In this document: positions 4,464 through 64,000 of the stretch, one piece after another | Layout of the letters: each line of letters begins with the position of its first letter | Numbering within the stretch: position 1 is the stretch's first letter | DNA from: Cryptosporangium phraense | GTDB taxonomy: Bacteria > Actinomycetota > Actinomycetes > Mycobacteriales > Cryptosporangiaceae | Direction of reading: 5' to 3' | DNA: 64,000 nucleotides | NCBI RefSeq assembly: GCF_006912135.1 | Contig: NZ_VIRS01000007.1 | Span: 62,001 to 126,000, forward strand | The notes under the pieces: generated by a model | What the model was told of the DNA's origin: nothing | What the model saw: only the letters and a program-made list of their open reading frames with translations | The model's database searches: none | Translations under genes and position numbers: made by a program

Positions 4464-5333
4464 ATGACGACGTTCGAGCCCGCGGTCGAGGACGGACAAC
4501 CGGTCGTTACGTACGAGGTTCGCGGACCGGTGGCGCTCGTGACCGTCAATCGTCCGAAATACACGAACGCGCAGAACTCGAAGGTGACCTACGCGCTGGA
4601 CGCGTTCTTCACCCGCGCCGTGGACGACGACGACGTCGCGGTGATCGTGCTGGCCGGGGCGGGGAAGCACTTCAGCGGCGGCCACGACATCGGGACCCCG
4701 GGCCGGGACGTCGACGAGTCGTTCGACCGGCGCGCGGTGATCTGGTGGGACCACGCCGACAAGCAGGGCGTGGATTCCCGGTACGCCCGCGAGTCCGAGG
4801 TGTACCTCGGGATGTGCCGGCGCTGGCGCGAGATCCCGAAACCGATGATCGCGATGGTGCAGGGGGCGTGCATCGCGGGCGGGCTGATGCTGGCCTGGTC
4901 GTGCGACTTCGTCGTCGCGTCCGAGGACGCGTTCTTCTCCGACCCGGTCGTCCGGATGGGGATCCCGGGCGTGGAGTACTTCGCGCACCCGTGGCAGATG
5001 AGCCCGCGGGCGGCCAAGGAGTTCCTGTTCACCGGCGACCGGTGGACCGCGCAGCGGGCCCGGGCGGCCGGGATGGTGAACCACGTCGTCCCCCGGGACG
5101 AGCTCGAATCGACGGTCTTCGCCCTGGCCGGGCGGATCGCGGCGATGCCCCGGCTGGGGCTGGCGCTGGCCAAGAAGGCGGTGAACCAGGCCGAGGACGC
5201 GCAGGGGCTGCGCGTCGGGATGGACTCGGTGTTCGGGCTGCACCACGCCGCCCACGCGCACAACGCCGAGGTCGGTACGGATTCCCTGGCCGGCCTGGAC
5301 GCGCGGTCGATGGCCCGCGGGAACCGGGCGTGA
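4464..5333 (+). CDS. enoyl-CoA hydratase/isomerase family protein in the HIP operon
   Basis: 289 aa crotonase-fold protein. The oxyanion-hole signatures are visible: HFSGGHDIG near 70-78 and the QGACIAGGLML segment near 133-143. The C-terminal half resembles larger actinobacterial EchA proteins of about 290 aa. The ATG at 4464 is chosen because the in-frame extension to 4380 would cross the operator and run into fadE30. It is the first gene of the plus-strand operon, directly behind the KstR2 site, and its stop overlaps the next gene's GTG. Its place in the operon suggests it hydrates the enoyl-CoA made by FadE30/FadE33, but this is inference; it could act later, after ring opening. Confidence 0.8.
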   Translation: MTTFEPAVEDGQPVVTYEVRGPVALVTVNRPKYTNAQNSKVTYALDAFFTRAVDDDDVAVIVLAGAGKHFSGGHDIGTPGRDVDESFDRRAVIWWDHADKQGVDSRYARESEVYLGMCRRWREIPKPMIAMVQGACIAGGLMLAWSCDFVVASEDAFFSDPVVRMGIPGVEYFAHPWQMSPRAAKEFLFTGDRWTAQRARAAGMVNHVVPRDELESTVFALAGRIAAMPRLGLALAKKAVNQAEDAQGLRVGMDSVFGLHHAAHAHNAEVGTDSLAGLDARSMARGNRA

Positions 5334-10955: not shown

Positions 10956-12446
10956 GTGTCCGAGACGATTCCGGAGCTGCTGCGGTACGCGGGCGAGGCG
11001 TTCGCCGACCGGATCGCGATCGCCGACGGGCCGGTCCGGACGACCTACGCCGAACTGCACGAGCAGGCCCGGGCCGCGAGCCGAGCCTATCGGGCGGCCG
11101 GCGCCCGCCCCGGCGACCGCGTCGCGCTGTGGGCGCCGAACCGGCCCGAGTTCGTCGTCGCGCTGCTCGGCGCGCTGTCGGCCGGGCTCGCCGTGGTGCC
11201 GCTGAACACCCGGTTCCGCGGCCCGGAGGCGCACCGGATCCTGACCCGCTCCCGGGCCACCGTGCTGGTCGTCGACGACGGGTTCCTGGGCACCGACTAC
11301 CTGGGGATGTTGCCCGCCGACCGTCCGCACCTGCGGGCGATCGTCGAGCTGGGAGACCCGCACGAGGGCACGGTGCCCTGGGCCGACTTCCTGGCCGCCG
11401 GGGCGGCCGGCCTCCCCGACGTCGTCGTCGAGCCGGACACCGTGGCCGACGTGCTGTTCACCTCGGGCACCACCGGGGAGCCCAAGGGCGTGATGTCGAG
11501 CCACCGGCAGACGCTCTCGGTCGCCACGGTCTGGGCCCGGGGCGCGTCGCTCGGCCCGGACGACCGGTACGCGATCGTCAACCCGTTCTTCCACAGCTTC
11601 GGCTACAAGGCCGGGATCGTCGCCGCGCTGACCGCGGGCACCGCGATCCACCCGGTCGCCACGTTCGACCCGGAGGCGCTGCTGGCGCTGATCGAGCGGG
11701 AGCGGATCACGGTCCTGCCCGGCGCCCCGACGATCTTCACCACGCTGATCAACCACCCGAAGCGCACCGCCTACGACCTGGGCTCGCTCCGGTTCTCGAT
11801 CGCCGGCGCGGCCTCGGTGCCGCCGAACCTGTTCCTCCAGATGCGCGACGTGCTGGGCTTCGACGAGGTCGCCCAGGCCTACGGCCTGACCGAGTGCGTC
11901 GTCGCGACGAAGTCCCGGCCCGGCGAGGACCCGCTGCACATCGCCGAGAACGTCGGCCCGGCCGTCCCCGGCCTCGAGATCCGGATCGCCGACGCCGACG
12001 ACGAGGTGCTGATCCGCGGCGCCAACGTGATGCTCGGCTACTTCGAGGATCCGGACGCCACCCGGCTGGCCATCGATGCGGACGGCTGGCTGCACACCGG
12101 CGACCAGGGCCGGCTGGACGAGCACGGCTGCCTGCGCATCACCGGCCGGATCAAGGACATGTTCACGGTCGGCGGGTTCAACGTGTACCCGGCCGAGGTC
12201 GAGAACGTCCTGGCCGACCACCCGGCGGTGGCCGAGGCCGCGGTCGTCGGCGTCCCCGACGACCGCCTGGGCTCGGTCGGCCGCGCCTACGTCACGGCCC
12301 GCCCCGGCGCGGCCGTGGAGGCCGGCGACGTGCTGCGGTTCGCGCGCGAGCGGTTGGCCAACTTCAAGGTGCCGCGCGAGGTCGTCGTGCTCGACGCGCT
12401 CCCCCGCAACGCCGCCGGCAAGATCCTCAAGCGGTCGCTGTCTTAA
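10956..12446 (+). CDS. fadD3: FadD3-like HIP-CoA ligase
   Basis: 496 aa ANL-superfamily acyl-CoA synthetase, the size of FadD3. The ATP-binding P-loop FTSGTTGEPKGVM is near 168-180, QAYGLTE near 307-313, HTGD and GRIKDMFTVGGFNVYPAEVE in the hinge region, and the catalytic Lys in NAAGKILKRS at the C-terminus. FadD3 activates HIP to HIP-CoA, the committed step and the source of the KstR2 ligand. GTG start with AGGAGG six bases upstream. Convergent with the hemerythrin-like gene; the stop codons overlap. Confidence 0.83.
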   Translation: MSETIPELLRYAGEAFADRIAIADGPVRTTYAELHEQARAASRAYRAAGARPGDRVALWAPNRPEFVVALLGALSAGLAVVPLNTRFRGPEAHRILTRSRATVLVVDDGFLGTDYLGMLPADRPHLRAIVELGDPHEGTVPWADFLAAGAAGLPDVVVEPDTVADVLFTSGTTGEPKGVMSSHRQTLSVATVWARGASLGPDDRYAIVNPFFHSFGYKAGIVAALTAGTAIHPVATFDPEALLALIERERITVLPGAPTIFTTLINHPKRTAYDLGSLRFSIAGAASVPPNLFLQMRDVLGFDEVAQAYGLTECVVATKSRPGEDPLHIAENVGPAVPGLEIRIADADDEVLIRGANVMLGYFEDPDATRLAIDADGWLHTGDQGRLDEHGCLRITGRIKDMFTVGGFNVYPAEVENVLADHPAVAEAAVVGVPDDRLGSVGRAYVTARPGAAVEAGDVLRFARERLANFKVPREVVVLDALPRNAAGKILKRSLS

Positions 12447-13493: not shown

Positions 13494-13760
13494 TCAGGCG
13501 AGCTCCACGAGCAGGGCGGCGATGCAGTCGCGCTCACGGACGAGGGCACGGAAGACGCGCTCGGGCGCAACCAGTTCGTGCCCCCGCCGGGACGCCTCGA
13601 CGTGGGACAACGCGCACAACTCGATCGCGCCGGGCGGATGACGGCGGCGGACATGGAGGCCGCCTCCAGACGCTGGGCCGTGGGCGGTGGAGAGCGGGCC
13701 GAAGCTGTGGACGACGTGGTCAGCGGCGGCGGGAGCGGGATTCGACGACGGTGGCGGCAC
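13494..13760 (-). CDS. possible orphan Clp N-terminal-like domain protein
   Basis: 88-aa reading frame. The C-terminal ~45 residues (CALSHVEASRRGHELVAPE then RVFRALVRERDCIAALL) have the helix pattern of one Clp_N repeat (EA..LGH..VG.EHLL.aLL). The N-terminal 40 residues look like non-coding Pro/Ala/Ser sequence, and the ATG at 13760 overlaps the preceding small gene by 41 nt in another frame. It may be a genuine small gene with an unrecognised start, or the tail of a decayed clpC-like gene beside the IS remnant. Low certainty. Confidence 0.33.
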   Translation of the reverse strand: MPPPSSNPAPAAADHVVHSFGPLSTAHGPASGGGLHVRRRHPPGAIELCALSHVEASRRGHELVAPERVFRALVRERDCIAALLVELA

Positions 13761-13896
13761 TGGCGCAAACCAGGGCGGCGATGATCCAGGTCGTGTGGAC
13801 GCCGAGGATCCCGGCGAGCAGGGCGAAGTAGGCGGTCGCCAGCAGCAGGGCGGCGAGGAGCGGCGGGCGACGGCGGGTGGACGGCCGGGTCGTCAT
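13720..13896 (-). CDS. small membrane protein, 58 aa
   Basis: The ATG at 13896 is preceded by GGAGG at ideal spacing. The protein has a basic N-terminus (TRRRPP), two closely spaced hydrophobic segments at about 13-30 and 35-50, and a basic SRSRRR tail, so it is predicted to be a hairpin inner-membrane protein. No family is recognised. It follows the STAS gene on the same strand after a 101-nt gap that can fold into a long stem. Confidence 0.6.
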   Translation of the reverse strand: MTTRPSTRRRPPLLAALLLATAYFALLAGILGVHTTWIIAALVCASAATVVESRSRRR

Positions 13897-46860: not shown

Positions 46861-47675
46861 CCTAAGTGCTACCTCGTAACTCGGTTCGGTCGGCGGTGTC
46901 CAGGCCTGGTCTGAGGTAAGACGGTCGCGGCGAGGTTGTGCATGTACGCGATTCCGCGGACGGCGTGTGCCACGCCGCCGCCGCGGCGGCGGCAGTCGCG
47001 GAGGATCGTCGAGTTCTTCATGCGCGCCAGGGCGCGTTCGATGCGGGCGCGGACGTGACGGTGCGACCGGTTGTGGTGTTCTCTCCAGTCCGGCAGCGGG
47101 GTCTTGTCGCGGTTGCGGCGGTGCGGGACGACCGCCCCGCGGCAGCGGGGTCCGCGGTAGGCGCCGTCGGCGATCACGGTCGCGCCGCGGGTGGCCCAGG
47201 CCGCACCGGAGTCTTCATGGGCGGTGCAGTCGTTGCGGTTGCCCGCCACCGGGTCACCGACCGCGACCACGAGTTGAGTGTCGGCGTCGATGATGACCTG
47301 CACGTTCACCGAGCAACGGTAGTTCTTCGACCGTGCGGTGAGGTCCTGGTCGCGGACCGGGCCAGGGTTGCGTCGTCGATGAGGACCCGCTCGGGTGAGT
47401 GCCGGCGCACGACCGACGAGAGTGTGAGCAGCGGCGCGAGACGGTCGATGATGCGCATCAGCACCCGGTCGGCCAGCGGCAGACACCACGGCCGGCCCGG
47501 CCGGCCGTCTGCGACCTGGGCGCCGCCCCGGCGAGCCACCATCGTGACCAGACGCCGGAACTGCCGCTCGGACAGGCCGGTGAAGACTGGGATCAGTTCG
47601 GTCCGCGACGCTGACAACACCACGACGAAGCACCCAACGACAACGACCCACCGCGGTTACGGGTCAGCCCTTAGG
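46861..47675 (-). mobile_element. decayed IS5-family insertion sequence
   Basis: The ends 46861-46880 and 47656-47675 are imperfect terminal inverted repeats matching at 16 of 20 positions by my count. The inside holds one broken transposase. Element size ~815 nt fits IS5-group elements with a short internal deletion. No convincing direct target repeat was seen; the exact outer ends are uncertain by a few bases. Confidence 0.65.
46869..47623 (-). pseudogene. IS5-family transposase, frameshifted and internally deleted
   Basis: The N-terminal part (47306-47623) has LSERQFRRLVTMVARRGG and GRPWCLPLADRVL, then jumps directly to IIDRLAPLLTL: about 28 residues that intact relatives carry here are missing. 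Near 47355 the frame breaks after VLIDDATLA, and the continuation VRDQDLTARSKNYRCSVN, NRNDCTAHEDS, VIADGAYRG and RARIERALARMK is found in another frame. The DDE residues of the C-terminal part remain, but one intact protein cannot be made, so the copy is dead. Confidence 0.82.
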
Positions 47676-49602: not shown

Positions 49603-50544
49603 CTAGGGCAGCGGGAGGACGCAGGTCGGGGAGCCGACCTCGTCGACGCGGCCGGTCGGCACCGGGACGCCGTCCACCAGGTCGAAGTACGCCAGACCGT
49701 GCGAGCGTTCGTTCGCGGCCACCAGCCCCCCGCCGACCAGCGCCAGGTCGCGCGGCCAGGCGCCCCCGCACGGCACCTCGGCCAGCGGCGCCGGCACCCC
49801 GCGAGAATCGAGGCGGAACGCGGCGATCGTGTCCGCACCCCGGTTGGCCAGGTACAGGTGGTCCCCGGTCAGGACGATCGCGCTGGGCTGGTTGGGGCCG
49901 TCCTTCGCCGTCGCCGGGGTCGACGCGACCACCGACCCGCCCTCCAGCGTCAGCACGGCCGAGCCGAGCTCGGCCGCCACGTAGCGGCGGCCGGAGGGAT
50001 GCGTCACGACGTGGCGCGGGCCGGAGCCGGGCGGCAGCACGGTCTCGGCGAGCCGCTCCAGGCGGCCGGACGCCAGCCGGTACTCCACCAGCCGGTCGAT
50101 ACCCAGGTCGACGACCGTGACCCGGCCGTCGGGACCGGGCACGACCTGGTGCGCGTGCGGGCCCTCCTGCCGGTCGGCGTCCGGCCCGGACCCCGAGTGC
50201 CGCACCAGGTCGGTGGCCGGTCCGACGATCCCGTCCGCGACCGGGTGCACCGACACGCTGCCCGACCCGTAGTTCGCGGCCAGCAGGTACCCGTCGGCCA
50301 GCGCCAGGTGGCACGGCCAGGTGCCGCCGGTCGAGGCGGTCGACCGCAGCTCCGGCGCGCCGCCCGGGCCCAGCGCGTAGGACGAGACCGTGCCCGCGCC
50401 CTCGTTCACCGCGTACAGCACCCCGGCGGACGCGATCACGTACGACGGCGAGGGGGTGTCGAGCGCCCCGCCCGGCCGCACCAGCAGGCCGGCGCCCGAG
50501 CCGTTCATGTCCGCGGTGTACGTGCCGACGACCAACCGGGTCAT
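49603..50544 (-). CDS. lactonase-family seven-bladed beta-propeller protein
   Basis: 313 aa. Repeated strands such as VVGTYTADMNGSGAGLLV, HLALADGYLLAANYGSGSVSV, PHAHQVVPGPDGRVTVVDLG and RHVVTHPSGRRYVAAE mark the Pgl/YbhE-type lactonase propeller. In this locus it is well placed to hydrolyse galactono-lactone made by the SDR dehydrogenase. It is the last gene of the minus operon; GGAGG lies in the preceding gene and ATG overlaps that gene's stop. Confidence 0.8.
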   Translation of the reverse strand: MTRLVVGTYTADMNGSGAGLLVRPGGALDTPSPSYVIASAGVLYAVNEGAGTVSSYALGPGGAPELRSTASTGGTWPCHLALADGYLLAANYGSGSVSVHPVADGIVGPATDLVRHSGSGPDADRQEGPHAHQVVPGPDGRVTVVDLGIDRLVEYRLASGRLERLAETVLPPGSGPRHVVTHPSGRRYVAAELGSAVLTLEGGSVVASTPATAKDGPNQPSAIVLTGDHLYLANRGADTIAAFRLDSRGVPAPLAEVPCGGAWPRDLALVGGGLVAANERSHGLAYFDLVDGVPVPTGRVDEVGSPTCVLPLP

Positions 50545-52553
50545 GCGCGCTCCTCCGAGAGAACCACCATCGTGGCGTCGTGTGACGCCGTCCACCGCAC
50601 CGGCAGCCCGGCCGCCATCAGGTGGGCGCCGGAGTACTCGGTGTCCCCGGCACGATAGGTGGCGGTGGCCGAGAGCCCGCGCAGCGGGAGGCGCACGTCC
50701 CGGCCGGGCACCGCGCCGAGCCCGTCGAGCCGGCCGGTGTTCCAGGCCAGCACCACGGTCCGGTCCCCCAGCGTGTACTGCACCGCGCAGCGGTCGGCGT
50801 CCGGGGACCCGATCCGATGCACGGTCCCCTCGGTGATGACGTCGCGGACCCGCTTGTACCGGGCCACCCACTCCCGAGCGGTCGCCCGGGAAGAGTCCGG
50901 CCAGGCCGAGACGTCGGCGCCGATGCCCAGCACGCCCGCGCAGGCCAGGACGAACCGGAAGTCCAGCGACCGCGGGCGGGCGTCGAACAGCCCGGGCGCG
51001 TCGGTGACCCACGAGCTCATCAGGTGCGGCGCGTGCGCGGCCAGGAACCCGTGCTGGACCCGTAGCCGGTCGAGCGGCGCGGTGTTGTCCGACGGCCACA
51101 GCACGTCGGTGCGGGCCGCCATCGCCAGGTCGACGCGCGCCCCGCCGGCCGCGCACCCCTCGACGGTCACCTGCGGGAACGCGGCCCGCAGGTGGTCGAG
51201 GATCCGGTACAGCGCGGCGACGTGCGCGCCGTCGGCGTCCGGGGCCACCGACTCGGTGCGGGGCCGGTTGAAGTCCCACTTGAGGTAGTCGATCGGGTAG
51301 GCCGACAGCAGGCCGTCGAGCGTCGCGGTGACGAACTTCTCGACGTCGGGCCGGCCGAGGTCGAGCAGGTACTGGTTCCGGATCGCGGTCTGCGGGCGCC
51401 CGTCGGCCCGGTACACCCAGTCCGGGTGCTCCGCGTAGAGCGCGGAGGCCGGGTTGACCATCTCCGGCTCGACCCAGAGCCCGAACTTCAGGCCCTTGGC
51501 CCGGACGGCGTGCACGAACGCGTCGAAACCGGCCGGGAACCTGGCCGGGTCCGGCGTCCAGTCGCCGAGGCCGCCGGTGTCGTCGGCGCGGCCGGTGAAC
51601 CAGCCGTCGTCGACGACGAACGTCTCCACGCCCAGGTCCGCCGCCACGTCCGCGAGCGCCAGCTGACCCTCGGCCGTGACGTCGAACGTCGTCGCCTCCC
51701 AGGAGTTGTAGACGACGGTCCGCGGGCCCGGCCGGGCCCGGGCCCGCTCGTAGGTGTGCCAGGCCCGGGCCAGGCCGTCGACGCCGTCGCCGCTGTAGGC
51801 GCCGGCCGCGACCGGCGTGGTGAGGGTCTCGCCGGGCGCGAGCCGGAGCGGCCCGTCGAGCCGACGGCCGGCCCGCACCCGGGTCAGCCCGGCCGCGTCG
51901 GCCTCGGCCGTGAGGGCCCAGGATCCCGTCCAGGCCAGTTGGACGCCCCAGGTGGGGCCGTGGTCGCCCGCGTTCTGGACGGCCAGGTACGGCGAAAAAG
52001 CGTGGCCGGTGACGCCCTGGGCGCTGCCGATCGCGAACCGGCCCCGGGGCAGCACGAGCGACGCGGTCGTGAACTCCTGCGCCCACTGGCCGCACAGATA
52101 GTGCAGCCGGGCCCCGGACGGCGTCGGCACCGAGAAGCCCGCCGAGCCGAGCGCCGAGATCGACACCGGCGCGGTCCCGTCATGGCGCAGCCGCACCCAG
52201 CGCTCGATCACGTCGGTGCCCCCGGCGAACCGGTAGCACTGCTCCCCCACCAGCCCGGTCAGCGCGTCGGCGAACGTCACGGTCAGCGTGTCGTCGGTCT
52301 GGGAAGCGTCCGCGTAGGCCCACCGGAAAGCCCCTCCGACCCGCAGGTCGGCACCGTGGAACGGGCGCAGCCCGTCGGTCGCGTACTCGACCGGAGCGAC
52401 GTCACCGGGCGTGAGGTACTGGACCTTGCCGGAGAAGGCCAGCGGGGACGGGCCGCGGGACACCCCGGCCGGGCCCCAGGAGTGCAGCTCGAGCCACTCC
52501 GGGGCCGCGGTGACCGTGTACTCGGTGGTGGCGCCGGCGAGGGTCCACCTCAT
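50541..52553 (-). CDS. GH36 alpha-galactosidase
   Basis: 670 aa. N-terminal beta-sandwich to about 250, catalytic barrel with NSWEATTFDV near 283-292, DDGWF at 315-319, nucleophile D427 in YLKWDFNR and acid/base D489 in PSDNTAP. It contains CAAGGARVD as expected in GH36. No signal peptide, so galactosides are taken up by the ABC importer and hydrolysed inside to release galactose. Overlaps both neighbours by four bases. Confidence 0.89.
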   Translation of the reverse strand: MRWTLAGATTEYTVTAAPEWLELHSWGPAGVSRGPSPLAFSGKVQYLTPGDVAPVEYATDGLRPFHGADLRVGGAFRWAYADASQTDDTLTVTFADALTGLVGEQCYRFAGGTDVIERWVRLRHDGTAPVSISALGSAGFSVPTPSGARLHYLCGQWAQEFTTASLVLPRGRFAIGSAQGVTGHAFSPYLAVQNAGDHGPTWGVQLAWTGSWALTAEADAAGLTRVRAGRRLDGPLRLAPGETLTTPVAAGAYSGDGVDGLARAWHTYERARARPGPRTVVYNSWEATTFDVTAEGQLALADVAADLGVETFVVDDGWFTGRADDTGGLGDWTPDPARFPAGFDAFVHAVRAKGLKFGLWVEPEMVNPASALYAEHPDWVYRADGRPQTAIRNQYLLDLGRPDVEKFVTATLDGLLSAYPIDYLKWDFNRPRTESVAPDADGAHVAALYRILDHLRAAFPQVTVEGCAAGGARVDLAMAARTDVLWPSDNTAPLDRLRVQHGFLAAHAPHLMSSWVTDAPGLFDARPRSLDFRFVLACAGVLGIGADVSAWPDSSRATAREWVARYKRVRDVITEGTVHRIGSPDADRCAVQYTLGDRTVVLAWNTGRLDGLGAVPGRDVRLPLRGLSATATYRAGDTEYSGAHLMAAGLPVRWTASHDATMVVLSEERA

Positions 52554-53779
52554 GCCAGGAACGCCGCATTGAGACGACGCTGCAGCGCGACGTCGTTCCA
52601 CATCGGGTGGTGCGGGGCGGCGTTGGAGCAGACGATCGTGCCCCAGGCGCCGAGCTCGCGGCTGCGCCGGACCGCGTGCTCGCAGATCTCGGCGCCGACC
52701 GGGCCCTCCTCGAACGTGCCGTGCAGCGGCGTGTACCCGACCCAGCCCTCGCCGAAGACCAGCGGGATTCCCCGGGCCGCGGCCAGGTCGGCGGCGGCGT
52801 CGAGCCAGGTGTCGAGCAGGACCCGCATCGCGATCCGGTGCTCGCCGTAGCGGGAGTACAGCCAGCGGTCCCACTTGCCGGGGTCGCACCAGTCGTGGGT
52901 GTAGATCTCGCGGGCCCCGACGACGGTGGCGTCGAGGACCCAGCGCCGTTCCGGTGCGGGCAGCCACTCCTCCAGCGGGGGTGCACCATCGCGCAGGAGC
53001 TCGGCGTAGGCGCGTTCCTGCGGGTACGGGCGCGACGGGTCGCGGAGCGCGAACTCCTCGACCAGCGAACCGAGCACCCCGTACACGTACGGGTGGAAGA
53101 TCGCGACCCCGATGTTGCGCGGGACGCCCCGGAGCTGCTCGATCGGCACGTGCGCGATGTTCACCGTGCACGGCACCGAGGGGTGGCGGTCGGTGAACCG
53201 GTCGATGCCCTTCTCCAGGCCGTCGCGGATCCCGAGCAGCGACCCGAATTCGCCGCCCTCGGTGAGGGCGCTGTACTGCACCTCGTTGTGGAGCTCGACG
53301 AACGCGATCGTGTCCGCGAGGCCTTCGGCGGTCACGAAGTCGACCAGGTCGGCCTGGGCGTCGGCCAGCGCGAGGGGCCGGGCCTCCACGGGGACCTGGC
53401 GGAGGGCCGCGTGCCAGGAGGAGTCGGCGAGGAACGACGGGGACTGCTGGTACTCCCAGCTCGACACGATCACGCGCACGTCGTGCCGGGCGGCGGCCCG
53501 GAAGAACGCCAGCAGGTGCGCGCGGCCGTCGAGGGTGGTGGGGGCTTTCACGTCGTACCAGCGGGTGCGCTGCCCGTACTCGCCGCCGAGTGAGCGGAAT
53601 CGGAGCGCGGACGTGTCGAGGCCGGAGCGGAACAGCAGCCAGGGCATCGCGCAGATCCGCACGGTGTTGTAACCCCGGTCGACGGCCTCGGCGAAGGCCA
53701 CGTCCAGGTCTTCGAAGGGTTCCCCTGGGCCGGTGCGCGTGTACCAGGTGAAATCCCACAGAGAGATGGTCAGGTTCAC
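52550..53779 (-). CDS. cellulase-like glycoside hydrolase-family protein
   Basis: 409 aa, GTG start at the MalG-type permease stop. TIM-barrel pattern with WDFTWYTRTGPGEPFEDLD, WEYQQSPSF, VELHNEVQYS near 165-174 (candidate acid/base Glu) and VFGEGWVGYTP near 335-345 (candidate nucleophile Glu). It resembles the cellulase-like Pfam family of clan GH-A. No signal peptide, so it acts on imported oligosaccharides. The linkage is unknown; the two conserved Glu support hydrolase activity. Confidence 0.75.
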   Translation of the reverse strand: MNLTISLWDFTWYTRTGPGEPFEDLDVAFAEAVDRGYNTVRICAMPWLLFRSGLDTSALRFRSLGGEYGQRTRWYDVKAPTTLDGRAHLLAFFRAAARHDVRVIVSSWEYQQSPSFLADSSWHAALRQVPVEARPLALADAQADLVDFVTAEGLADTIAFVELHNEVQYSALTEGGEFGSLLGIRDGLEKGIDRFTDRHPSVPCTVNIAHVPIEQLRGVPRNIGVAIFHPYVYGVLGSLVEEFALRDPSRPYPQERAYAELLRDGAPPLEEWLPAPERRWVLDATVVGAREIYTHDWCDPGKWDRWLYSRYGEHRIAMRVLLDTWLDAAADLAAARGIPLVFGEGWVGYTPLHGTFEEGPVGAEICEHAVRRSRELGAWGTIVCSNAAPHHPMWNDVALQRRLNAAFLA

Positions 53780-54657
53780 TTGTTCGCCCCCACCAGCAGC
53801 CCCGACACGAAATGCCGCTGGAACGCGAAGAACACGATCGCGGTCGGCACCGCGGCCAGCACCGACGCCGCCGCCACCACGTTCCACTGCGACACGTACC
53901 CGCCCTGCAGGTTCAGCAGGGCCGCGGTGACCGGCAGTTTCGCCTCGGTGCGCAGCACGGTGATCGCCCAGATCAGGTCGTTGAAGATCCACGTCGTGGC
54001 CAGCGCAGCGAGCGCGGCGAGGGAAGGGCGGCACAGCGGCAGCACGATCCGGGCGTAGATCTGCACCGGCCCGGCCCCGTCGATGCGGGCCGCCTCGGTG
54101 AGTTCCCCGGGCAACGACCGCATGAACCCGTACAGCACGAACGTGTAGAACCCGAGCCCGAACCCGACGTGGATCAGCACCAGCCCGGTCAGCGTGTCGT
54201 ACAGGCCGATCGACTCGGTGATCCGGGACACCGGGATCAGCAGGATCTGCGGGGGCAGCAGGTTCCCGGCCAGCATGATCAGCAGGATCGCCCGCCGCCC
54301 GGGGATCGCGTACCGGCTCAGCGCGTACGCGGCCATCGACGCCAGCCACAGCGTGATGACGACCGCGGGCACGGTGATCTTGATCGACGTCCACAGGGAC
54401 CGGGCCATTCCGCCAGTGCCCAGCGCGGTGTCGAACGCGCCGAGGCCGAAGCTGTGCGGCCAGGACGCGGTGCCGTTCGCGGCCACGTCGTCGAACGACC
54501 GCACGGCCAGGAGCAGCACGAACGCCATCGGCGCGACCCAGAGCAGGGTGATCGGGGCCATCACGGCGTGGAAGACCCAGGCCCTCCGCCGCCGCCGGGG
54601 CGGCGGGGCCGCGACCGGCTCGTCCACCGACGGGGACGCCACCAGGGTGGCACTCAT
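53776..54657 (-). CDS. carbohydrate ABC transporter permease (MalG type)
   Basis: 293 aa, six hydrophobic helices. The EAA loop GELTEAARIDGAGPVQIYARIVLPLCRP near 199-226 contacts the ATPase. Long basic cytoplasmic N-terminus. Second permease of the importer; ATGA/GTGA overlaps link it to both neighbours. Confidence 0.9.
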   Translation of the reverse strand: MSATLVASPSVDEPVAAPPPRRRRRAWVFHAVMAPITLLWVAPMAFVLLLAVRSFDDVAANGTASWPHSFGLGAFDTALGTGGMARSLWTSIKITVPAVVITLWLASMAAYALSRYAIPGRRAILLIMLAGNLLPPQILLIPVSRITESIGLYDTLTGLVLIHVGFGLGFYTFVLYGFMRSLPGELTEAARIDGAGPVQIYARIVLPLCRPSLAALAALATTWIFNDLIWAITVLRTEAKLPVTAALLNLQGGYVSQWNVVAAASVLAAVPTAIVFFAFQRHFVSGLLVGANK

Positions 54658-55559
54658 GCCGCGGCCTCCTCACGGGTCGCCCGGACCAGGTACGTGATGA
54701 TGAAGACCAGCGCCAGCGCGAAGATCACCACCGCGATCGCGGACGCGTAGCCCAGGTTCAGGAACTTGAAGCCCTGCTGGAACATGTACGTGCTGAGCAG
54801 CTCGGACGAGTGGTACGGGCCGCCCGCGGTCATCGCCCAGACGATGTCGAACGTCCGCAGCGAGTCGATCACGGTCACCGCGAACACCACGGTGTTGACG
54901 CCGCGCAACTGTGGCCAGGTGACGTACCGGAACCGCTGCCAGGCGGTGGCCCCGTCCACCGCCGACGCGTCGTCGAGCGTCGGGTCGGTGCCCTTGAGGC
55001 CGGCCAGGTACAGCACCATCACGTACCCGACCTGCCGCCAGACGGCGGCGACCAGCACGGCATAAAGAGCCGTGTCCGGGTTCGCCAGCCACTGCTTTTC
55101 CCACGAGCCCAGCCCGATCGCGCCGAGCAGCGTGTTGATCGACCCGTCGGGCTGGTACTGGACCCGCCAGAACAGGCCGGTCACCGCGAGCGAGAACACC
55201 ATCGGCAGGTAGATCGCGCTGCGGTAGAGGCCGACCCCGCGCCGGGGCCGGTTCAGCGCGAGCGCCAGCGCCAGCCCGCCCAGCACCGACAGCCCACCGA
55301 ACCCGACCGCCCAGATGACGTTGTTCTTCAGCGCCCCGGTGAAGACGTCGTCGGAGAACAGCTGCGAGTAGTTGTCGAGCCCGACCGGCTGGGCCGCGCC
55401 CAGCCCGTTCCAGGTCGTGAACGACAGGTAGAAGCTGTTGAGCGCCGGCCAGAACACCATGCCGACCTCGACCAGCGCCGGCACCGTCAGGAACACCCAG
55501 ACGATGGCCGGGACCCGGCGCCAGGCCTTCCGCCGTGCGGGAGCGGCGAGAACGGTCAC
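54654..55559 (-). CDS. carbohydrate ABC transporter permease (MalF type)
   Basis: 301 aa from GTG 55559, which overlaps the binding-protein stop (GTGA); the in-frame start at 55592 lies inside that gene. Hydrophobic helices and the EAA-like loop DPTLDDASAVDGATAWQRFRYVTWPQL. Forms the heterodimeric pore with the MalG-type subunit. The ATPase is not encoded nearby. Confidence 0.88.
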   Translation of the reverse strand: MTVLAAPARRKAWRRVPAIVWVFLTVPALVEVGMVFWPALNSFYLSFTTWNGLGAAQPVGLDNYSQLFSDDVFTGALKNNVIWAVGFGGLSVLGGLALALALNRPRRGVGLYRSAIYLPMVFSLAVTGLFWRVQYQPDGSINTLLGAIGLGSWEKQWLANPDTALYAVLVAAVWRQVGYVMVLYLAGLKGTDPTLDDASAVDGATAWQRFRYVTWPQLRGVNTVVFAVTVIDSLRTFDIVWAMTAGGPYHSSELLSTYMFQQGFKFLNLGYASAIAVVIFALALVFIITYLVRATREEAAA

Positions 55560-56836
55560 GACCCGAGGACCTTCTTCGCCGACGCCTGCCACTCCTTGAG
55601 GATCGCGTTCACGTCACCGGGCTTGTCGAGGAACTTCGTCAGCGCCGTGTCGGCCGTGGTCTGCAGCTCGTCGCTGGAGTCCCGGTTGAAGAACTGGGTG
55701 ATCTCCTGGGTCTCGTTCAGGTGCGTGATGCCCTTCTGCACCAGCGGCGAGAACTTCGACGTGTCGACCTCGGACGACGTCGGCAGGTTCGACGACTTCG
55801 CGCGTTCGATGAACTTCTGCTGCTGTTGCGGGCCGGCCAGGTACGAGAGCAGGTCGAGCGCGCCCTGCTTGTTGCGGGTCTTGGCGGCCGCGAAGTACCC
55901 GTCGGTGGGGGCCTCCTCGGCGACCGGCACCGACGTGTCGATCGTCGGGACGCGGAAGAAGTCGATGTCCTCGACCCCGCCCTGCGGCACCGAGCTGGTG
56001 GCGAACGCGCCGATCAGGTACATCGCCGCCTTCTTGTTGACCAGCGGGGTGACCGCGTCCTGGTAGGAGTACGAGCGGCCCTTCGGGTCGAGGTACTCGA
56101 TCAGCTGCCGGTAGTGGTCCATGACCTGCTTGACCTCGGCCGAGTCGAACGAGTGCTGCCCGGCCAGCAGCTCCCGGTGGAACTTCGCGCCGTTGATCCG
56201 CAGGTTGAGGTAGTCGAACCAGCCGGACGCCATCCACGGCGTCGAGCCGGTGCCCATCGTCAGCGGGTAGACGCCCTTGCTCTTGATCGTCTTGCAGACC
56301 GCGATGAACTCGTCCCAGGTCTTCGGTGGCTGCACGCCCCACTCGGCGAACGCCGACTTCTTGTAGAAGACGCCCCACCAGTAGTAGTTCGTGGGGATGA
56401 AGATCTGCTTGCCGTCGGCGGCGGTCGACAGTTCCTTGAGCGCGGGCGAGAACTTCGCGCAGGCCCCGTCGCCGGTCCACAGTGACGACACGTCGAGCAG
56501 GAAGCCCTTGCTGGCGTAGTCGCGGGCCACCGAGCCCGCGTACCAGGTGAGCACGTCCGGCGGGTTGGCCGAGTTGAGGTAGGTCGGCAGCTGGGCGCGG
56601 AACGTCTCGATCGCGATCGTGTTGAGCGTGACCTTCTGCTTCGTGTAGCCGTCGACCACCGCGGTCAGCGCGGCCTTCGGGTCCGCGTCGGACTGCGAGT
56701 TCTGCAGCGTCAGCGTGTTCGAGCCGCTGCCGCCGCCGGAGTCGCTCCCGGTCGCGCAGCTGGACAGGAGGGCGGCGGCCCCGAGGCCGCCGAGACCGGC
56801 CAGGAATCCTCTGCGGCTGACTGCGGTGGTAGCCAT
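55556..56836 (-). CDS. sugar ABC transporter substrate-binding lipoprotein
   Basis: 426 aa family 1 (MalE-like) binding protein. Twin-arginine motif SRRGFLAG at 7-14 and lipobox LSSC with Cys 27, so a Tat-exported lipoprotein. Mature domain has WYAGSVARDY, NYYWWGVFYKK and PPKTWDEF motifs. ATG 56836 with GGAGG upstream. First gene of the minus operon. Together with alpha-galactosidase it suggests uptake of alpha-galactosides such as melibiose-, raffinose- or galactomannan-type oligosaccharides. Confidence 0.89.
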   Translation of the reverse strand: MATTAVSRRGFLAGLGGLGAAALLSSCATGSDSGGGSGSNTLTLQNSQSDADPKAALTAVVDGYTKQKVTLNTIAIETFRAQLPTYLNSANPPDVLTWYAGSVARDYASKGFLLDVSSLWTGDGACAKFSPALKELSTAADGKQIFIPTNYYWWGVFYKKSAFAEWGVQPPKTWDEFIAVCKTIKSKGVYPLTMGTGSTPWMASGWFDYLNLRINGAKFHRELLAGQHSFDSAEVKQVMDHYRQLIEYLDPKGRSYSYQDAVTPLVNKKAAMYLIGAFATSSVPQGGVEDIDFFRVPTIDTSVPVAEEAPTDGYFAAAKTRNKQGALDLLSYLAGPQQQQKFIERAKSSNLPTSSEVDTSKFSPLVQKGITHLNETQEITQFFNRDSSDELQTTADTALTKFLDKPGDVNAILKEWQASAKKVLGS

Positions 56837-56970
56837 GTGAACCCTCCGGGGGGCGAGAGTCATTCGCGGCGTCCCCTGCGACGCCGCGTTGCCGAAAGGT
56901 TGCCCGCCGATGGCAGGGCTGTCAATATATCTTCGTAATTAATGGTTAGTTCGAAACCGGAGGCGCGCGG
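56837..56970. promoter_or_regulatory. divergent promoter region of the galactoside locus
   Basis: 134 nt between the two operons, with an AT-rich island at about 56918-56953 (TATATC, TAATTAAT) that is rare in this DNA. It must contain both promoters and probably the DgoR-like operator; no perfect palindrome was found by eye. Confidence 0.6.
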
Positions 56971-57696
56971 ATGGGCGATCGTTTCGCCGGGAAGACCGCT
57001 CTCGTCACGGGCGCGGCCGGTGGCATCGGGGCCGCCTGTGCGGCCCGGCTCGCCGCCGAGGGCGCCTCGGTCGTGCTGACCGACGTGCGTCCGGCCGAGG
57101 AGGCCGCGGAGAAGATCCGCGCCGCGGGCGGCCGCGCCACCGCGGTGGTGGCCGACGCGTCCGATGAGGACGCCTGGCGGCGCACCGCGTCGGCCTGCGG
57201 CCCGGTCGACGTCCTGGTCTCCAACGCGGTCCTGGTGGACGTGAAGCCCGCGCACGAAACGAGCCGGGAATCCTGGGACCGGCAGCTCGCCGTGTCGCTG
57301 ACCGGGTCGTTCCTCGGCGTCCGCGCGCTGCTGCCGTCGCTGCGGGCGGCCGTGCTCATCTCGTCGGTGCACGCGCTGGTGGGGCTGCCCGGGCGGCCGG
57401 CCTACGCGGCGGCGAAAGGGGCGCTGGTCTCGCTGGGCCGCCAGCTCGCGGTCGAGTACGGTCCGGCGCTGCGGGTCAACGTCGTCCTGCCCGGCCCGAT
57501 CCTGACCGACGCCTGGGCCGGCTTCAGCCGGGCCGACCGGGAGCGCAGCGCCGCGGCCACGGTCGCCGGCCGGCTGGGCGACCCGGCCGAGGTCGCGGCC
57601 GCGGTCGCGTTCCTGGCCTCCGACGAGGCCGCGTTCATCACCGGCACGACGCTGGTCGTGGACGGCGGCTGGACCGCTTCGAAGTCTTCATCGTGA
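56971..57696 (+). CDS. SDR-family sugar (galactose?) 1-dehydrogenase
   Basis: 241 aa SDR. TGAAGGIG near 13-20, DADASDE-like acidic stretch, SNA in place of NNAG, catalytic Ser in SSVHA and YAAAK Tyr-Lys, ending GTTLVVDGGW. GGAGG lies before its ATG. As first gene of an operon with dgoD and aldolase it is well placed to oxidise galactose to galactono-lactone, as sugar-type SDR dehydrogenases do. The substrate is inferred from context. Its stop overlaps the GntR start. Confidence 0.78.
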   Translation: MGDRFAGKTALVTGAAGGIGAACAARLAAEGASVVLTDVRPAEEAAEKIRAAGGRATAVVADASDEDAWRRTASACGPVDVLVSNAVLVDVKPAHETSRESWDRQLAVSLTGSFLGVRALLPSLRAAVLISSVHALVGLPGRPAYAAAKGALVSLGRQLAVEYGPALRVNVVLPGPILTDAWAGFSRADRERSAAATVAGRLGDPAEVAAAVAFLASDEAAFITGTTLVVDGGWTASKSSS

Positions 57697-58418
57697 CGAA
57701 CGGGAGACCCCACCGGATGCAGCAGTACGTGGCGCGCGGAGTACACGGTCAGACGGTCGAGGTGCTCGCCCAGCGCATCCTGACCGGCCAGCTCCCGGAG
57801 GGTTCCACACTCGACATCGGCGCGCTGCAGACCGAGTTCGACGTCAGTCTGACCGTGCTCCGGGAGGCGCTGCGCGTGCTGGCCGCGAAGGGCATGGTCG
57901 ACGCGCGGCCCAAGCGCGGCACGTTCGTCCGCCCGCGCGGCGACTGGAGCCTGCTCGACCCGGACGTCCTGCGGTGGCAGTTCTCCCGGCAGGTGCGGCC
58001 GGGTCTCTTCGCGGACCTGCACGAGGTCCGGAGCATCGTCGAGCCGGGCGCGGCCGGGCTGGCCGCGTCGCGGGCCACCGACGACGACCTGGCCGCGCTC
58101 GACGACGCGCTCGACGCGATGGCCGCGGCCGGGAACGACGCCGGGGCCGCGGTCGAGGCGGACCTCGCGTTCCACCGGGCGCTGCTCGCCGCCACCCACA
58201 ACGAGCTGCTGCAGCGCATGGAGGTCCTGATCGAGACCGGCCTGGCCGAACGCGACCGGATGGTCCACCGCCACGGGCCCGGCGACCCGGTCCCCGCGCA
58301 CCGGGCCGTGGTCGGCGCGATCCGGGCCCGGGACGCGCTGGGGGCCGCCCAGGCCATGGGCCGGTTGCTGGAGCAGGCCGTCGCGGACGTCGCCCGGCTC
58401 GAGGAGTCGCCCGAATGA
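57693..58418 (+). CDS. DgoR-like GntR-family (FCD) regulator
   Basis: 241 aa, GTG start at the SDR stop. Winged HTH near 18-82 with LPEGSTLDIGALQTEFDVSLTVLREALRVLAAKGMVDARPKRGTFV-type pattern, then an FCD domain with DLHEVRSIVEPGAAGLAA and FHRALLAATHNELL. The 'DPDVLRW' segment after the wing is typical of DgoR/GntR repressors of sugar-acid genes. It lies inside the operon with dgoD, so it probably represses it and responds to galactonate or a downstream acid. Confidence 0.86.
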   Translation: MTNGRPHRMQQYVARGVHGQTVEVLAQRILTGQLPEGSTLDIGALQTEFDVSLTVLREALRVLAAKGMVDARPKRGTFVRPRGDWSLLDPDVLRWQFSRQVRPGLFADLHEVRSIVEPGAAGLAASRATDDDLAALDDALDAMAAAGNDAGAAVEADLAFHRALLAATHNELLQRMEVLIETGLAERDRMVHRHGPGDPVPAHRAVVGAIRARDALGAAQAMGRLLEQAVADVARLEESPE

Positions 58419-59560
58419 AGATCGTGAGCGTCGAGACGTTCCTGGTGCCACCGCGCTGGCTGTTCTGCCGGATCGGCACCGACGAGGGCCTGGTCGGCTG
58501 GGGCGAGCCGGTCGTCGAGGGCCGGGCCGAGGTCGTCCGCGCGGCCGTCGACGTGCTGGCCGAGTACCTGCTGGGCGAGGACCCGTTACGCATCGAGCAG
58601 CACTGGCAGGTCCTCACCAAGGGCGGGTTCTACCGGGGCGGCCCGGTGCTCTCGTCCGCGGTGGCCGGCGTCGACCAGGCGCTCTGGGACATCGCCGGGC
58701 AGGCCTACGACGCGCCCGTGCACGCGCTGCTCGGGGGCGCGGTCCGCGACCGGGTCCGGGTCTACGCGTGGGTCGGCGGCGACTCGGCCGGCGAGGTGAC
58801 CGACGCGGTGACCGCGCACGTCGAGGCCGGGATGACCGCGGTGAAGATGAACGCCAGCGGGGTGCTCTCCCCGGTGCCGACCCGGGCCGAGCTGGCCGGG
58901 ATCGTGGCCCGGGTCGCGGCCGCCCGGGACGCGCTGGGCGACGACCGGGACGTGGCCGTCGACCTGCACGGCCGGGCCACGTTCGCGGCCGCCCGGCAGA
59001 TCCTGCCCGCGCTCGCGCCGCTGCAGCCGCTGCTGGTCGAGGAACCGCTGCTGCCCGAGCACTCCGCCCGGCTGGCCGAGCTGGTCGCGTGCTCGACGGT
59101 GCCGGTCGCGACCGGGGAACGGCTGTACCACCGGTCGGACTTCCTGCCCGCGCTGACCGCCGGGGTGAGCATCGTCCAGCCCGACCTGTCGCACGCCGGC
59201 GGGATCTCCGAGGTGCGCCGGATCGCCTCGCTGGCCGAGACGCACGGGGCGCTGCTGGCGCCGCACTGCCCGCTCGGGCCGATCGCGCTGGCCGCGAGCC
59301 TGCACGTCGCGCTGGCCACCCCGAACTTCCTGATCCAGGAACAGAGCATGGGCATCCACTACAACGTCGGCGCGGACCTGCTGGACTACCTGGTGGACCC
59401 GGCCCCGCTGACGATCACCGACGGGTACATCGGGCGGCTGTCCGGGCCCGGGCTCGGGGTCTCGGTCGACGAGGCCGCGGTGCGGCGGGCCGACCGGTCC
59501 GGGCACGCCTGGCGCAACCCGGTGTGGCGGCACGCCGACGGGTCCTTCGCGGAATGGTGA
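58415..59560 (+). CDS. dgoD: D-galactonate dehydratase
   Basis: 381 aa, one residue short of E. coli DgoD, and alike over the entire length. Enolase-superfamily residues are in place: D183 and H185 in VDLHGR, metal ligands E209 and E235 (VEEP, TGER), catalytic H284 in APHCPLGP and E309 in IQEQSMGIHYN, with the WRNP ending. It dehydrates D-galactonate to 2-keto-3-deoxygalactonate. This is the strongest single marker that the locus runs the oxidative galactose pathway. ATG overlaps the preceding stop. Confidence 0.92.
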   Translation: MKIVSVETFLVPPRWLFCRIGTDEGLVGWGEPVVEGRAEVVRAAVDVLAEYLLGEDPLRIEQHWQVLTKGGFYRGGPVLSSAVAGVDQALWDIAGQAYDAPVHALLGGAVRDRVRVYAWVGGDSAGEVTDAVTAHVEAGMTAVKMNASGVLSPVPTRAELAGIVARVAAARDALGDDRDVAVDLHGRATFAAARQILPALAPLQPLLVEEPLLPEHSARLAELVACSTVPVATGERLYHRSDFLPALTAGVSIVQPDLSHAGGISEVRRIASLAETHGALLAPHCPLGPIALAASLHVALATPNFLIQEQSMGIHYNVGADLLDYLVDPAPLTITDGYIGRLSGPGLGVSVDEAAVRRADRSGHAWRNPVWRHADGSFAEW

Positions 59561-60291
59561 GCGTCTCCGTCGACCCGGCGCACGGCGGGCGGTGGACGTC
59601 GCTGGTGTCCGGGGGGCGGGAGTGGCTGTGGTCGCGGCCGTCGCCGGCGCGGTTCGCGGTGGCGCCCGGAGACACGTTCGTGGACGTCGGCGGCGTCGAG
59701 GAGTGCCTGCCGACCGTGCGCGGGGTCCCGGACCACGGGGACGTGTGGTCCCGGCCGTGGACGGCGCTGCCCGGGGAGGCCCGGGTGAGCGCGCCGGACT
59801 TCGCACTGCGCCGCACGATCCGGACGGACGGCGACGCGGTGCACGTCGGGTACACGCTGCGGGCCGCGCCGGGCTTCCGGTTCGTGTGGGCGGCGCACGC
59901 GTTGCTGGACGTGTCGGCGTCGGCCCGGCTGGCGGCCCCGGCCGGGACGCCGACGCTCGTCGACGGGGCCGGCGTCGTCGCGTGGCCGGCCGGTGGGCTC
60001 GACCGCCTCGGGCCGGACGACGGCACCGCGGTCGGCGCGGTCCTGCGGGACTGCCCGGCCGTCACCGTCGACGACGGCGAACGCCTGAGCTTCACGCTGC
60101 ACGCGCCGGACCAGCCGGTCTCGGTCGCGCTCTGGCGGAACCTGGGCGGGTGGCCCGAGGGCGACCCGTACCGGTCGATCGGCGTGGAGCCGATGCTCGG
60201 GCGGGTCTTCGACCTGGCCGAGGCCGGTCCGGGGGACGCGGCCGTAGTCTTCGGTTCGGGGGTGGCGCGGTGGATGCTGACGATCTCCTAG
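59554..60291 (+). CDS. aldose 1-epimerase (mutarotase)-like protein
   Basis: 245 aa from ATG 59554, overlapping dgoD by seven bases (GTG 59557 is an alternative). Galactose-mutarotase-like fold cues: GGRWTSLVSGGREWLW near the start, GGVEECLPTV near 47-56, HALLDVS and IGVEPMLGR at the C-terminus. Shorter than canonical GalM (~340 aa), and not all catalytic His/Glu can be assigned, so function is moderate confidence. It would interconvert galactose anomers before oxidation. Confidence 0.68.
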   Translation: MVSVSVDPAHGGRWTSLVSGGREWLWSRPSPARFAVAPGDTFVDVGGVEECLPTVRGVPDHGDVWSRPWTALPGEARVSAPDFALRRTIRTDGDAVHVGYTLRAAPGFRFVWAAHALLDVSASARLAAPAGTPTLVDGAGVVAWPAGGLDRLGPDDGTAVGAVLRDCPAVTVDDGERLSFTLHAPDQPVSVALWRNLGGWPEGDPYRSIGVEPMLGRVFDLAEAGPGDAAVVFGSGVARWMLTIS

Positions 60292-61160
60292 ACGTCGTGT
60301 GCGTCGGGGAGTCGATGGTGCTGGTGACGCCGGATCCGCCCGGGCCGCTGGCCGCCGGGGGCCCGGCGCGGCTCGACGTGGCCGGGGCCGAGTCGACCGT
60401 CGCCTGTTACCTGGCGCTGCTCGGGGCGCGGACCGCGTGGGTCGGCGCGGTCGGGGCGGATCCGCTCGGGGACCTGGTGCGGGACCGCATCGCCGGGTAC
60501 GGCGTGGACGTGTCCGGGGTCTCGGTCCGCGCCGACGCGCCGACCGGGGTGTTCTTCAAGAACCCCGGGGCGGCCGGGACGACCGTGCACTACTACCGGG
60601 CCGGGTCGGCGGCCTCCCGGCTCGGGCCGCGGGAGCTGCCGGAGGCGCGGGTCGTGCACCTGTCCGGCATCACGCCGGCGCTGTCGGCGTCGTGTGCCGC
60701 CCTGGTCGACTCGGTGCTGGCGGTACCGGGGCCGGTGCGCAGCTTCGACGTGAACTACCGGCCCGGGCTGTGGCCGGTCGCGCGGGCCGCACCGGTGCTG
60801 GCCGCGCTGGCCGACCGGGCCGACGTGGTCTTCGTCGGCCTCGACGAGGCCGGCACGCTCTGGGGCTGTGCCTCTCCGGCCGAAGTCCGGGCGCTGCTCC
60901 CGTCGCCGGCGACGGTCGTCGTGAAGGACGCCGCGGTCGGCGCCTACGCGGGCGGCGTCTTCGTTCCGGCGCCGGCCGTCGACGTCGTCGAGCCCGTCGG
61001 GGCCGGGGACGCGTTCGCGGCGGGCTACCTCGCCGGGCTGCTGGCGGACGCGCCCGAGGCCGAGCGGCTCGCGCTCGGGCACCGGGTCGCCGGATCCGCC
61101 CTGCGCATCGCCGGTGACGTCCCCCCGCCCGGCACCCCACTACCGGAAGGCGCGCGATGA
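60270..61160 (+). CDS. PfkB-family sugar kinase (2-keto-3-deoxy sugar kinase?)
   Basis: 296 aa from GTG 60270, 22 nt inside the previous gene. Ribokinase/PfkB motifs: CVGESMVLVTPDP near 11-23, GGPARLDVAGAESTVA, FDVNYRPGLW near 159-168 and the C-terminal GAGDAFAAGYLAG anion hole with catalytic Asp. This type includes KDG kinase (KdgK). In context it would phosphorylate 2-keto-3-deoxygalactonate; E. coli uses the unrelated DgoK for that step. A GTG at 60297 is a shorter alternative. Confidence 0.8.
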   Translation: MDADDLLDVVCVGESMVLVTPDPPGPLAAGGPARLDVAGAESTVACYLALLGARTAWVGAVGADPLGDLVRDRIAGYGVDVSGVSVRADAPTGVFFKNPGAAGTTVHYYRAGSAASRLGPRELPEARVVHLSGITPALSASCAALVDSVLAVPGPVRSFDVNYRPGLWPVARAAPVLAALADRADVVFVGLDEAGTLWGCASPAEVRALLPSPATVVVKDAAVGAYAGGVFVPAPAVDVVEPVGAGDAFAAGYLAGLLADAPEAERLALGHRVAGSALRIAGDVPPPGTPLPEGAR

Positions 61161-61753
61161 CGCTCTCCCTCGACCCGTACCTCGGGACCACCCGGATCAT
61201 GGCGATCCTGCGCGGCCGGCCCGCGGCCGAGACCGTCGCGCTGGCCGGACGGCTCTGGGACGCCGGGGTCACCGCGCTCGAGGTCCCGATCGCGACCCCC
61301 GACGCGGTGGACTCGCTGCGGGCCACGGTCGAGGCGGCCGCCGCGCGCGGGCTCGTCGTCGGCGCCGGCACCGTCACCACCCCGGACCTGGCCCGGACCG
61401 CGGCCGCGGCCGGCGCCCGCTACACGGTCGCGCCCGGGCTCGACCTGACCGTCCTGGCCGCCAGCCTGCACGCCGGCCTCCCGCACCTGCCGGGCGTCGG
61501 CACCGCCACCGAGGTGGCGACCGCGGTCGCGGCCGGCTGCCGCTGGGTCAAGGCCTTCCCGGCCGGTCCGCTCGGTCCCGGTTGGGCGAAGGCGCTGCAC
61601 GGCCCGTTCCCGGACGTCCGGATCGTGGCGACGGGAGGCCTGACGCCGGGCGACGTGCCCACCTACCTGGAGAACGGCGCCGCCGTGGTGGCGCTCGGGG
61701 CGGCCCTGGCCGACCCGGGCGCGGCCGACGCGCTGACGGAGTACCTGGACTGA
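61157..61753 (+). CDS. KDPG/KDPGal aldolase
   Basis: 198 aa, class I aldolase of the Eda/DgoA family. E42 in LEVPIATP, VGAGTVTTPD near 68-77, and Schiff-base K132 in WVKAFPA, then ATGGLTPGDV. Splits 2-keto-3-deoxy-6-phosphogalactonate (or the gluco form) to pyruvate and glyceraldehyde-3-phosphate. Eda and DgoA cannot be told apart by eye; context favours DgoA function. ATG overlaps the kinase stop. Confidence 0.86.
   Translation: MTLSLDPYLGTTRIMAILRGRPAAETVALAGRLWDAGVTALEVPIATPDAVDSLRATVEAAAARGLVVGAGTVTTPDLARTAAAAGARYTVAPGLDLTVLAASLHAGLPHLPGVGTATEVATAVAAGCRWVKAFPAGPLGPGWAKALHGPFPDVRIVATGGLTPGDVPTYLENGAAVVALGAALADPGAADALTEYLD

Positions 61754-64000
<2,247 letters not shown>

Follow-up and report, generated by a model that had tools for sequence, protein, structure and literature searches.

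An α-Galactoside Utilisation Locus Probably Feeding an Oxidative Galactose Pathway in Cryptosporangium phraense

Introduction

The dgo operon of Escherichia coli (dgoR-dgoK-dgoA-dgoD-dgoT) contains a galactonate symporter and a kinase of family PF05035, and is without a galactosidase, a short-chain dehydrogenase/reductase (SDR), a lactonase or a mutarotase. Galactonate breakdown in mycobacteria was reportedly described in 1981. In Sinorhizobium meliloti, galactose is described as being oxidised by the De Ley-Doudoroff pathway through the galactose dehydrogenase gal, with β-D-galactose named as entering the pathway (PMC3687685). Here, we analyzed a window of 64,000 nucleotides (contig C7:62001-126000) from the 8.46 Mb genome of Cryptosporangium phraense (labelled G000), in which positions 49603-61753 carry genes for galactoside uptake and hydrolysis on one arm and for galactose oxidation on the other, and which we consider likely to form an α-galactoside utilisation locus feeding an oxidative galactose pathway of the De Ley-Doudoroff type. 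Its DgoD, regulator and aldolase are 49%, 36% and 33% identical to their E. coli counterparts, respectively.

Results

A total of 12 intact genes were found in two divergent arms, with the open reading frames (ORFs) of each arm overlapping or almost abutting in an operon-like manner. The minus arm runs from a sugar-binding protein through permease 1, permease 2, a cellulase-like protein (CEL) and a GH36 α-galactosidase to a lactonase (LAC), while the plus arm runs from an SDR through a GntR/FCD regulator, DgoD, a mutarotase-like protein and a PfkB kinase to an aldolase. Gene families were assigned by Pfam and NCBIfam model scans, and both permeases were named by eye and by homology across loci. 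An earlier sequence-only reading had placed this divergent locus and all its named genes correctly, though it counted eleven genes where there are twelve.

Good support for a divergent locus of α-galactoside uptake and oxidative galactose use comes from DgoD, from GH36, from the gene sets that stay together across genera and from the common intergenic element. DgoD (58415..59560, plus strand), of the MR_MLE enolase type, scored 560.8 bits on the NCBIfam model NF010624, for which 311 is the cut-off, and a putative D-galactonate dehydratase is its best match among solved chains. Six residues, D183, H185, E209, E235, H284 and E309, which we take to be catalytic, are common to it and E. coli DgoD, and its sequence firmly indicates a galactonate dehydratase. 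The GH36 protein (50541..52553, minus strand; PF02065, 315 bits; no signal peptide seen by eye) has α-galactosidases AgaA and AgaB as its nearest solved relatives. Aligned to AgaA, it carries D427 within KWDFNR and D489 within SDNTA, exactly the two residues that the earlier reading had named; these are presumably the nucleophile and the acid/base, and on this sequence basis it is a melibiase-domain α-galactosidase with its catalytic Asp pair.

A scan of named genomes with DgoD returned at least 586 relatives, from which 80 loci from named actinobacteria were kept. Presence was scored by tblastn match, with fragments counted, at identity limits of 50% for SDR and the permeases, 45% for GH36, the mutarotase-like protein, the regulator and CEL, 40% for the binding protein and LAC, and 33% for the kinase and aldolase. 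The analysis revealed the regulator in 66 loci, SDR in 63, kinase in 56, aldolase in 52, mutarotase in 36, GH36 in 33 and CEL in six. A total of 31 loci combine GH36, importer, SDR, regulator and DgoD; the mutarotase, kinase and aldolase complete this set in 24 of the 80. The gene order is rearranged in some relatives. That the locus is rare or unique was rejected, as such clusters recur across actinobacterial genera. No LAC homologue of at least 40% identity was detected in the 80 DgoD loci, with a single 34% match in L069, while LAC is retained in both same-genus relatives having the cluster (L086, L087).

Among 397 genomes of the order, DgoD is present in 104, and a GH36 search gave 58 matches in 50 genomes. 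For each of the 26 matches above 600 bits, a DgoD was found at a distance of 4.5-7.9 kb, and none of the 32 weaker ones lies within 12 kb of one. Of the same-genus genomes, G001 carries the cluster in full and G002 has it with a GH36 remnant and the mutarotase start missing, while DgoD was not found in G003 at E 1e-100. The deletions in the G002 locus (L087) lie at about 13526-13810 and 6463-6493, affecting GH36 and the mutarotase start, and an Actinoplanes locus (L002) has deletions at 4786-5469, in the middle of CEL, and at 11298-11428, in the mutarotase-kinase stretch. These large internal deletions may reflect true decay or sequence lost when GC-rich DNA was assembled.

The mutarotase-like protein (59557..60291, plus strand) matched no family in Pfam, Aldose_epim included, or in NCBIfam at E 0.001, and its profile found nothing among PDB sequences at 0.1, so its assignment rests on the fold. 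The structural model, built from 23 sequences with a mean pLDDT of 82, has as its best PDB matches aldose epimerases and (galactose) mutarotases or putative ones, with E-values from 8e-9 downward and a TM score of 0.6-0.7 for the top match. H60, H114 and E211, presumably catalytic, are invariant across the 23 sequences. The predicted fold is that of an aldose 1-epimerase, in line with the earlier mutarotase-like label, and we propose a galactose mutarotase; the genome has one Aldose_epim match elsewhere, on contig C14.

In the 70 loci with full flanks (ten of the 80 with <20 kb were left out), the mutarotase was found in 29 of 30 loci with GH36 and in four of 40 without it (Fisher p 3e-14, kinship ignored). 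The exceptions are L015, having GH36 and no mutarotase, and L020, L036, L063 and L074, having a mutarotase and no GH36, with L063 containing a GH36 of 34% identity, which is below the limit and was scored absent. This link fits the chemistry, since a retaining GH36 frees α-galactose while galactose dehydrogenases presumably act on the β form, though block inheritance of one operon would also give the same pattern.

Between the arms lies a conserved AT-rich element, TGTCAATATATCTTCGTAATTAATGGTTAG (56920..56949, plus strand), which hardly varies between the genus, Actinoplanes and Micromonospora and can still be recognised in Nonomuraea and Kribbella. Its 24-base core occurs at one site in this genome at ≤3 mismatches, with none for a reversed-pattern control. 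The start of the element, read on the minus strand, gives TTGACA, and CAACCT follows after a 17-base spacer (56897..56925, minus strand; promoter-like pair identified by eye); the same spacing was observed in L002 and L007, so part of the element may overlap the importer promoter. Column symmetry over 21 sites peaked at two centres, of 0.67 and 0.59, which suggests overlapping imperfect inverted repeats. The search matrix was seeded from the window, L086, L087, L002, L007, L018 and L019. Matches in these seeds, and in near-copies from other Micromonospora, are thus given by design, and the other loci are partly related to the seeds. Streptomyces sites score 25-39 bits against 64, and a Markov control, which does not mimic AT-rich promoters, gave no hits above 25 bits in 1.61 million bases.

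Pfam was applied to ten of the genes beside element sites. Several Streptomyces loci with tandem arms carry the element twice, at some 125 bases from the start of the binding-protein gene and at a second site roughly 2.4 kb upstream, while in other Streptomyces-type loci (L014, L024, L030 and L037) only the upstream site exceeds 25 bits. The upstream-site genes examined by Pfam in L032 and L039, as well as one in L021, encode GH27 α-galactosidases (secretion signals by eye). The element also stands before the CEL gene and before SDR in L077 and L079, and before SMP-30 lactonases in L036 and L058. Flanking genes not plainly of a galactose regulon were a rhamnogalacturonan lyase (L048) and an N-acetylglucosaminidase 292 bases off (L071). 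The genome studied here has a GH27-type α-galactosidase gene elsewhere (contig C1, L110, 1402-2550; secreted by eye), which, unlike the Streptomyces GH27 genes, is without the element.

The element is, from its position and conservation, a candidate operator common to both arms. The regulator (57717..58418, alternative start 57693; plus strand) has the GntR and FCD domains expected of the DgoR-like protein that had been named. DgoR of E. coli is described as responding to galactonate and as binding a pair of inverted repeats that lie close together across its promoter (PMC12288454), and by analogy this logic suggests that the regulator may pair with the element.

The substrates of the remaining enzymes can be proposed with less firmness. 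The SDR (56971..57696, plus strand; PF13561) carries Y145xxxK149 and an acidic D38 after strand 2, which suggests the use of NAD, and a galactose 1-dehydrogenase is proposed, although the substrate is not readable from sequence. LAC (49603..50544, minus strand; PF10282, 210 bits) is a seven-bladed β-propeller lactonase and a proposed galactonolactonase. The PfkB-family kinase (60273..61160, plus strand; PF00294) has a 2-keto-3-deoxygluconate (KDG) kinase, 1v19, as its nearest solved relative, and its top NCBIfam model is the KDG/2-keto-3-deoxygalactonate (KDGal) kinase, weakly matched at 119 of 440 bits; a KDGal kinase is proposed, and orthology to E. coli DgoK was rejected on the differing Pfam families. 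The binding protein (55556..56836, alternative start 56863; PF01547, 120 bits) has a Tat-type signal and lipobox by eye and is followed by permease 1 (54654..55559) and permease 2 (53776..54657), all on the minus strand. No ABC ATPase gene was seen in the cluster on reading the ORF list, so uptake must rely on one encoded outside it. The earlier description of a self-contained unit is for this reason overstated, and the steps of the SDR, kinase and aldolase depend on predicted specificities.

The aldolase (61157..61753, plus strand; PF01081, KDPG/KHG family) carries an invariant K132, which we take to be the Schiff base lysine. It scored below every NCBIfam cut-off, with 129 of 207 bits for the model PRK09140 of 2-keto-3-deoxy-6-phosphogalactonate (KDPGal) aldolase and 133 of 156 bits for the eda model, and therefore its earlier label "KDPGal-type" is not established. 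The first strand, IMAIL, is KDPGal-like (compare IAIL in E. coli DgoA), while strand 7, ATGG with T159, resembles aldolases for 2-keto-3-deoxy-6-phosphogluconate (KDPG), with AVGG in DgoA and PTGG in Eda. Stereoselectivity is described as being set by the V154/T161 site and the first strand, with V154T alone reducing KDPGal selectivity (enantiomeric excess -96 to -79) without inverting it (PMC4915726). The 52 aldolases in the 80 loci comprise 45 with VGG, five with ATGG (L002, L015, L045, L053 and L062) and two with PTGG (L070 and L075), so the C. phraense aldolase is of a minority type. The VGG and ATGG types both occur in otherwise alike actinobacterial dgo loci. Judged from these motifs, the aldolase is the weakest step of the pathway, with KDPGal specificity likely.

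The suggestion that the locus stands in for the Leloir route was rejected, as a check for galK and galT found both on contig C45, with 291 bits (cut-off 227) and 138 bits (cut-off 102), respectively. By its gene content, the C45 locus appears to be this genome's Leloir route and a second galactoside locus. Positions 3024-11344 of C45 (L082) hold an importer, a β-galactosidase (GH42 by eye), galK, a DeoR-like regulator (by eye) and galT. A galK match was obtained in 331 of the 397 order genomes, and of the 26 genomes in which GH36 adjoins DgoD, 25 are among the galK matches listed, the exception being G140 (82% complete).

CEL (52550..53779, minus strand) matches only PF12876 in Pfam, and its model (mean pLDDT 78) is a GH5-like barrel, with 3gyc as the best fold match (Z 30.3), followed by GH5 mannanases (Z about 22). 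E166 is found in five of five aligned sequences and E344 in all four reaching that position, and these are the likely catalytic residues. Away from the dgo locus, CEL adjoins GH2, GH35, GH42 or GH43 enzymes, which makes action on a galactoside plausible. In L100-L103, CEL homologues lie near importers and GH35 or DUF5107/DUF4380 proteins (Pfam on L102 and L103), with no dgo genes noticed nearby. It is possible, though we hold it only tentatively, that the locus serves a mixed substrate with α-galactose on a β-linked unit, such as digalactosylglycerol from plant galactolipids or galactosylated manno-oligosaccharides, from which GH36 would remove galactose, CEL would cut the β bond and the dgo arm would oxidise the sugar. 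The barrel with its two conserved Glu, the single gene run of CEL and GH36 here and in G001, also the GH2, GH35, GH42 or GH43 neighbours elsewhere and the element before CEL in L077 and L079 speak for this. However, most loci joining GH36 and dgo are without CEL, the six positive loci including a partial match (L078) and a gutted copy without its middle (L002), and in the order 18 of the 397 genomes gave a CEL match, which by position lies close to DgoD in G000-G002 and G243 alone, assemblies as broken up as G111 being undecidable. CEL as a constant dgo partner was rejected on the same counts.

It is improbable that the dgo arm serves chiefly to break down galactonate, or some other aldonate, that is imported or derived from other sugars, while the GH36 arm is a mere neighbour sending its galactose to galK, although the genome has galK and galT, 47 of the 80 DgoD loci are without GH36 at 45% identity within the stretch covered, and galactonate-only clusters are described in Arthrobacter and Brevibacterium (PMC2991359, PMC5719810). 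No galactonate transporter was seen by eye in the locus, the mutarotase and SDR travel with GH36, and the intergenic element is common to the arms. That the SDR handles a side-product, and that the galactose dehydrogenase is encoded at another place, would accord with its unreadable substrate, but is improbable, with an SDR homologue in most DgoD loci, with or without GH36.

Beyond the cluster, an ORF at 46869-47651 (minus strand), upstream, looks by eye like an insertion-sequence DDE transposase, and a large ORF at 61865-64000 (plus strand), directly downstream, resembles by eye a monomeric NADP isocitrate dehydrogenase.

Discussion

In the α-galactoside utilisation locus that we propose, the binding protein and two permeases would import α-galactosyl oligosaccharides with an ATPase from elsewhere, and the retaining GH36 would release α-D-galactose in the cytosol, which the epimerase would convert to the β form. 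The SDR would then oxidise galactose with NAD to galactonolactone, the β-propeller lactonase would open the lactone, DgoD would dehydrate galactonate to KDGal, the PfkB kinase would phosphorylate it, and the aldolase would yield pyruvate and glyceraldehyde 3-phosphate. Repression of both arms until galactonate accumulates is probably the role of the GntR/FCD regulator, acting at 56920-56949, while β-galactosides probably go to the separate Leloir locus.

Several observations weigh against this reading. The SDR matches 221 NCBIfam models, of which the 25 listed are all below cut-off, and none of the solved chains is a close relative of known function; the kinase is of the PfkB family, unlike DgoK (PF05035); and the aldolase has T159 where E. 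coli DgoA has V154. In G002, GH36 is reduced to a remnant while most of the cluster is retained, and the co-occurrence counts ignore relatedness. Among the 70 full-flank loci, ten of the 56 with SDR are without the element and three of the 14 without SDR carry it. Moreover, the TKGT-N2-4-ACMA pair was absent within 40 bases of all 21 element sites and from the window's intergenic region, so no sign of a regulator acting at the common FadR box was found; TKGT/ACMA is described as the common FadR-type box, with other sites in some subfamily members (PMC4494728).

More speculatively, actinobacteria might possess a galactose regulon under one AT-rich operator, comprising importers, α- and β-galactosidases, lactonases and a new galactoside-cutting family (PF12876) together with oxidative breakdown, in which the mutarotase is added where an α-galactosidase supplies the sugar and β-galactosides may go by Leloir, so that linkage and anomer decide the route. 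The package of α-galactoside import, mutarotation, oxidation and dgo genes around one divergent control region is found in several actinobacterial genera, side by side with galK, offering a testable answer to why there are two galactose routes; a candidate operator can be named, and PF12876 hydrolases gain a likely galactoside context. The individual steps are known. No description of the combined package was found in searches of open papers, and to that extent the combination and its control region are new.

In S. meliloti, a lactose gene cluster with β-galactosidase is discussed, with gal at another place (PMC3687685). In Arthrobacter arilaitensis and Brevibacterium, galactonate genes are described in genomes or strain groups also having Leloir genes, but a galactonate importer replaces the galactoside importer and GH36, and no SDR is named in the portions of these sources available (PMC2991359, PMC5719810). 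The carrageenan loci of Pseudoalteromonas carrageenovora, with polysaccharide utilization locus PUL 7, are described as having SDR, lactonase, galactonate dehydratase and GntR genes (PMC6262041). That bacterium differs in being marine, in its other hydrolases and uptake and in a pathway divided between plasmid and chromosome, yet it also has a complete Leloir route (PMC6262041), and galK and galT are likewise present in the C. phraense genome.

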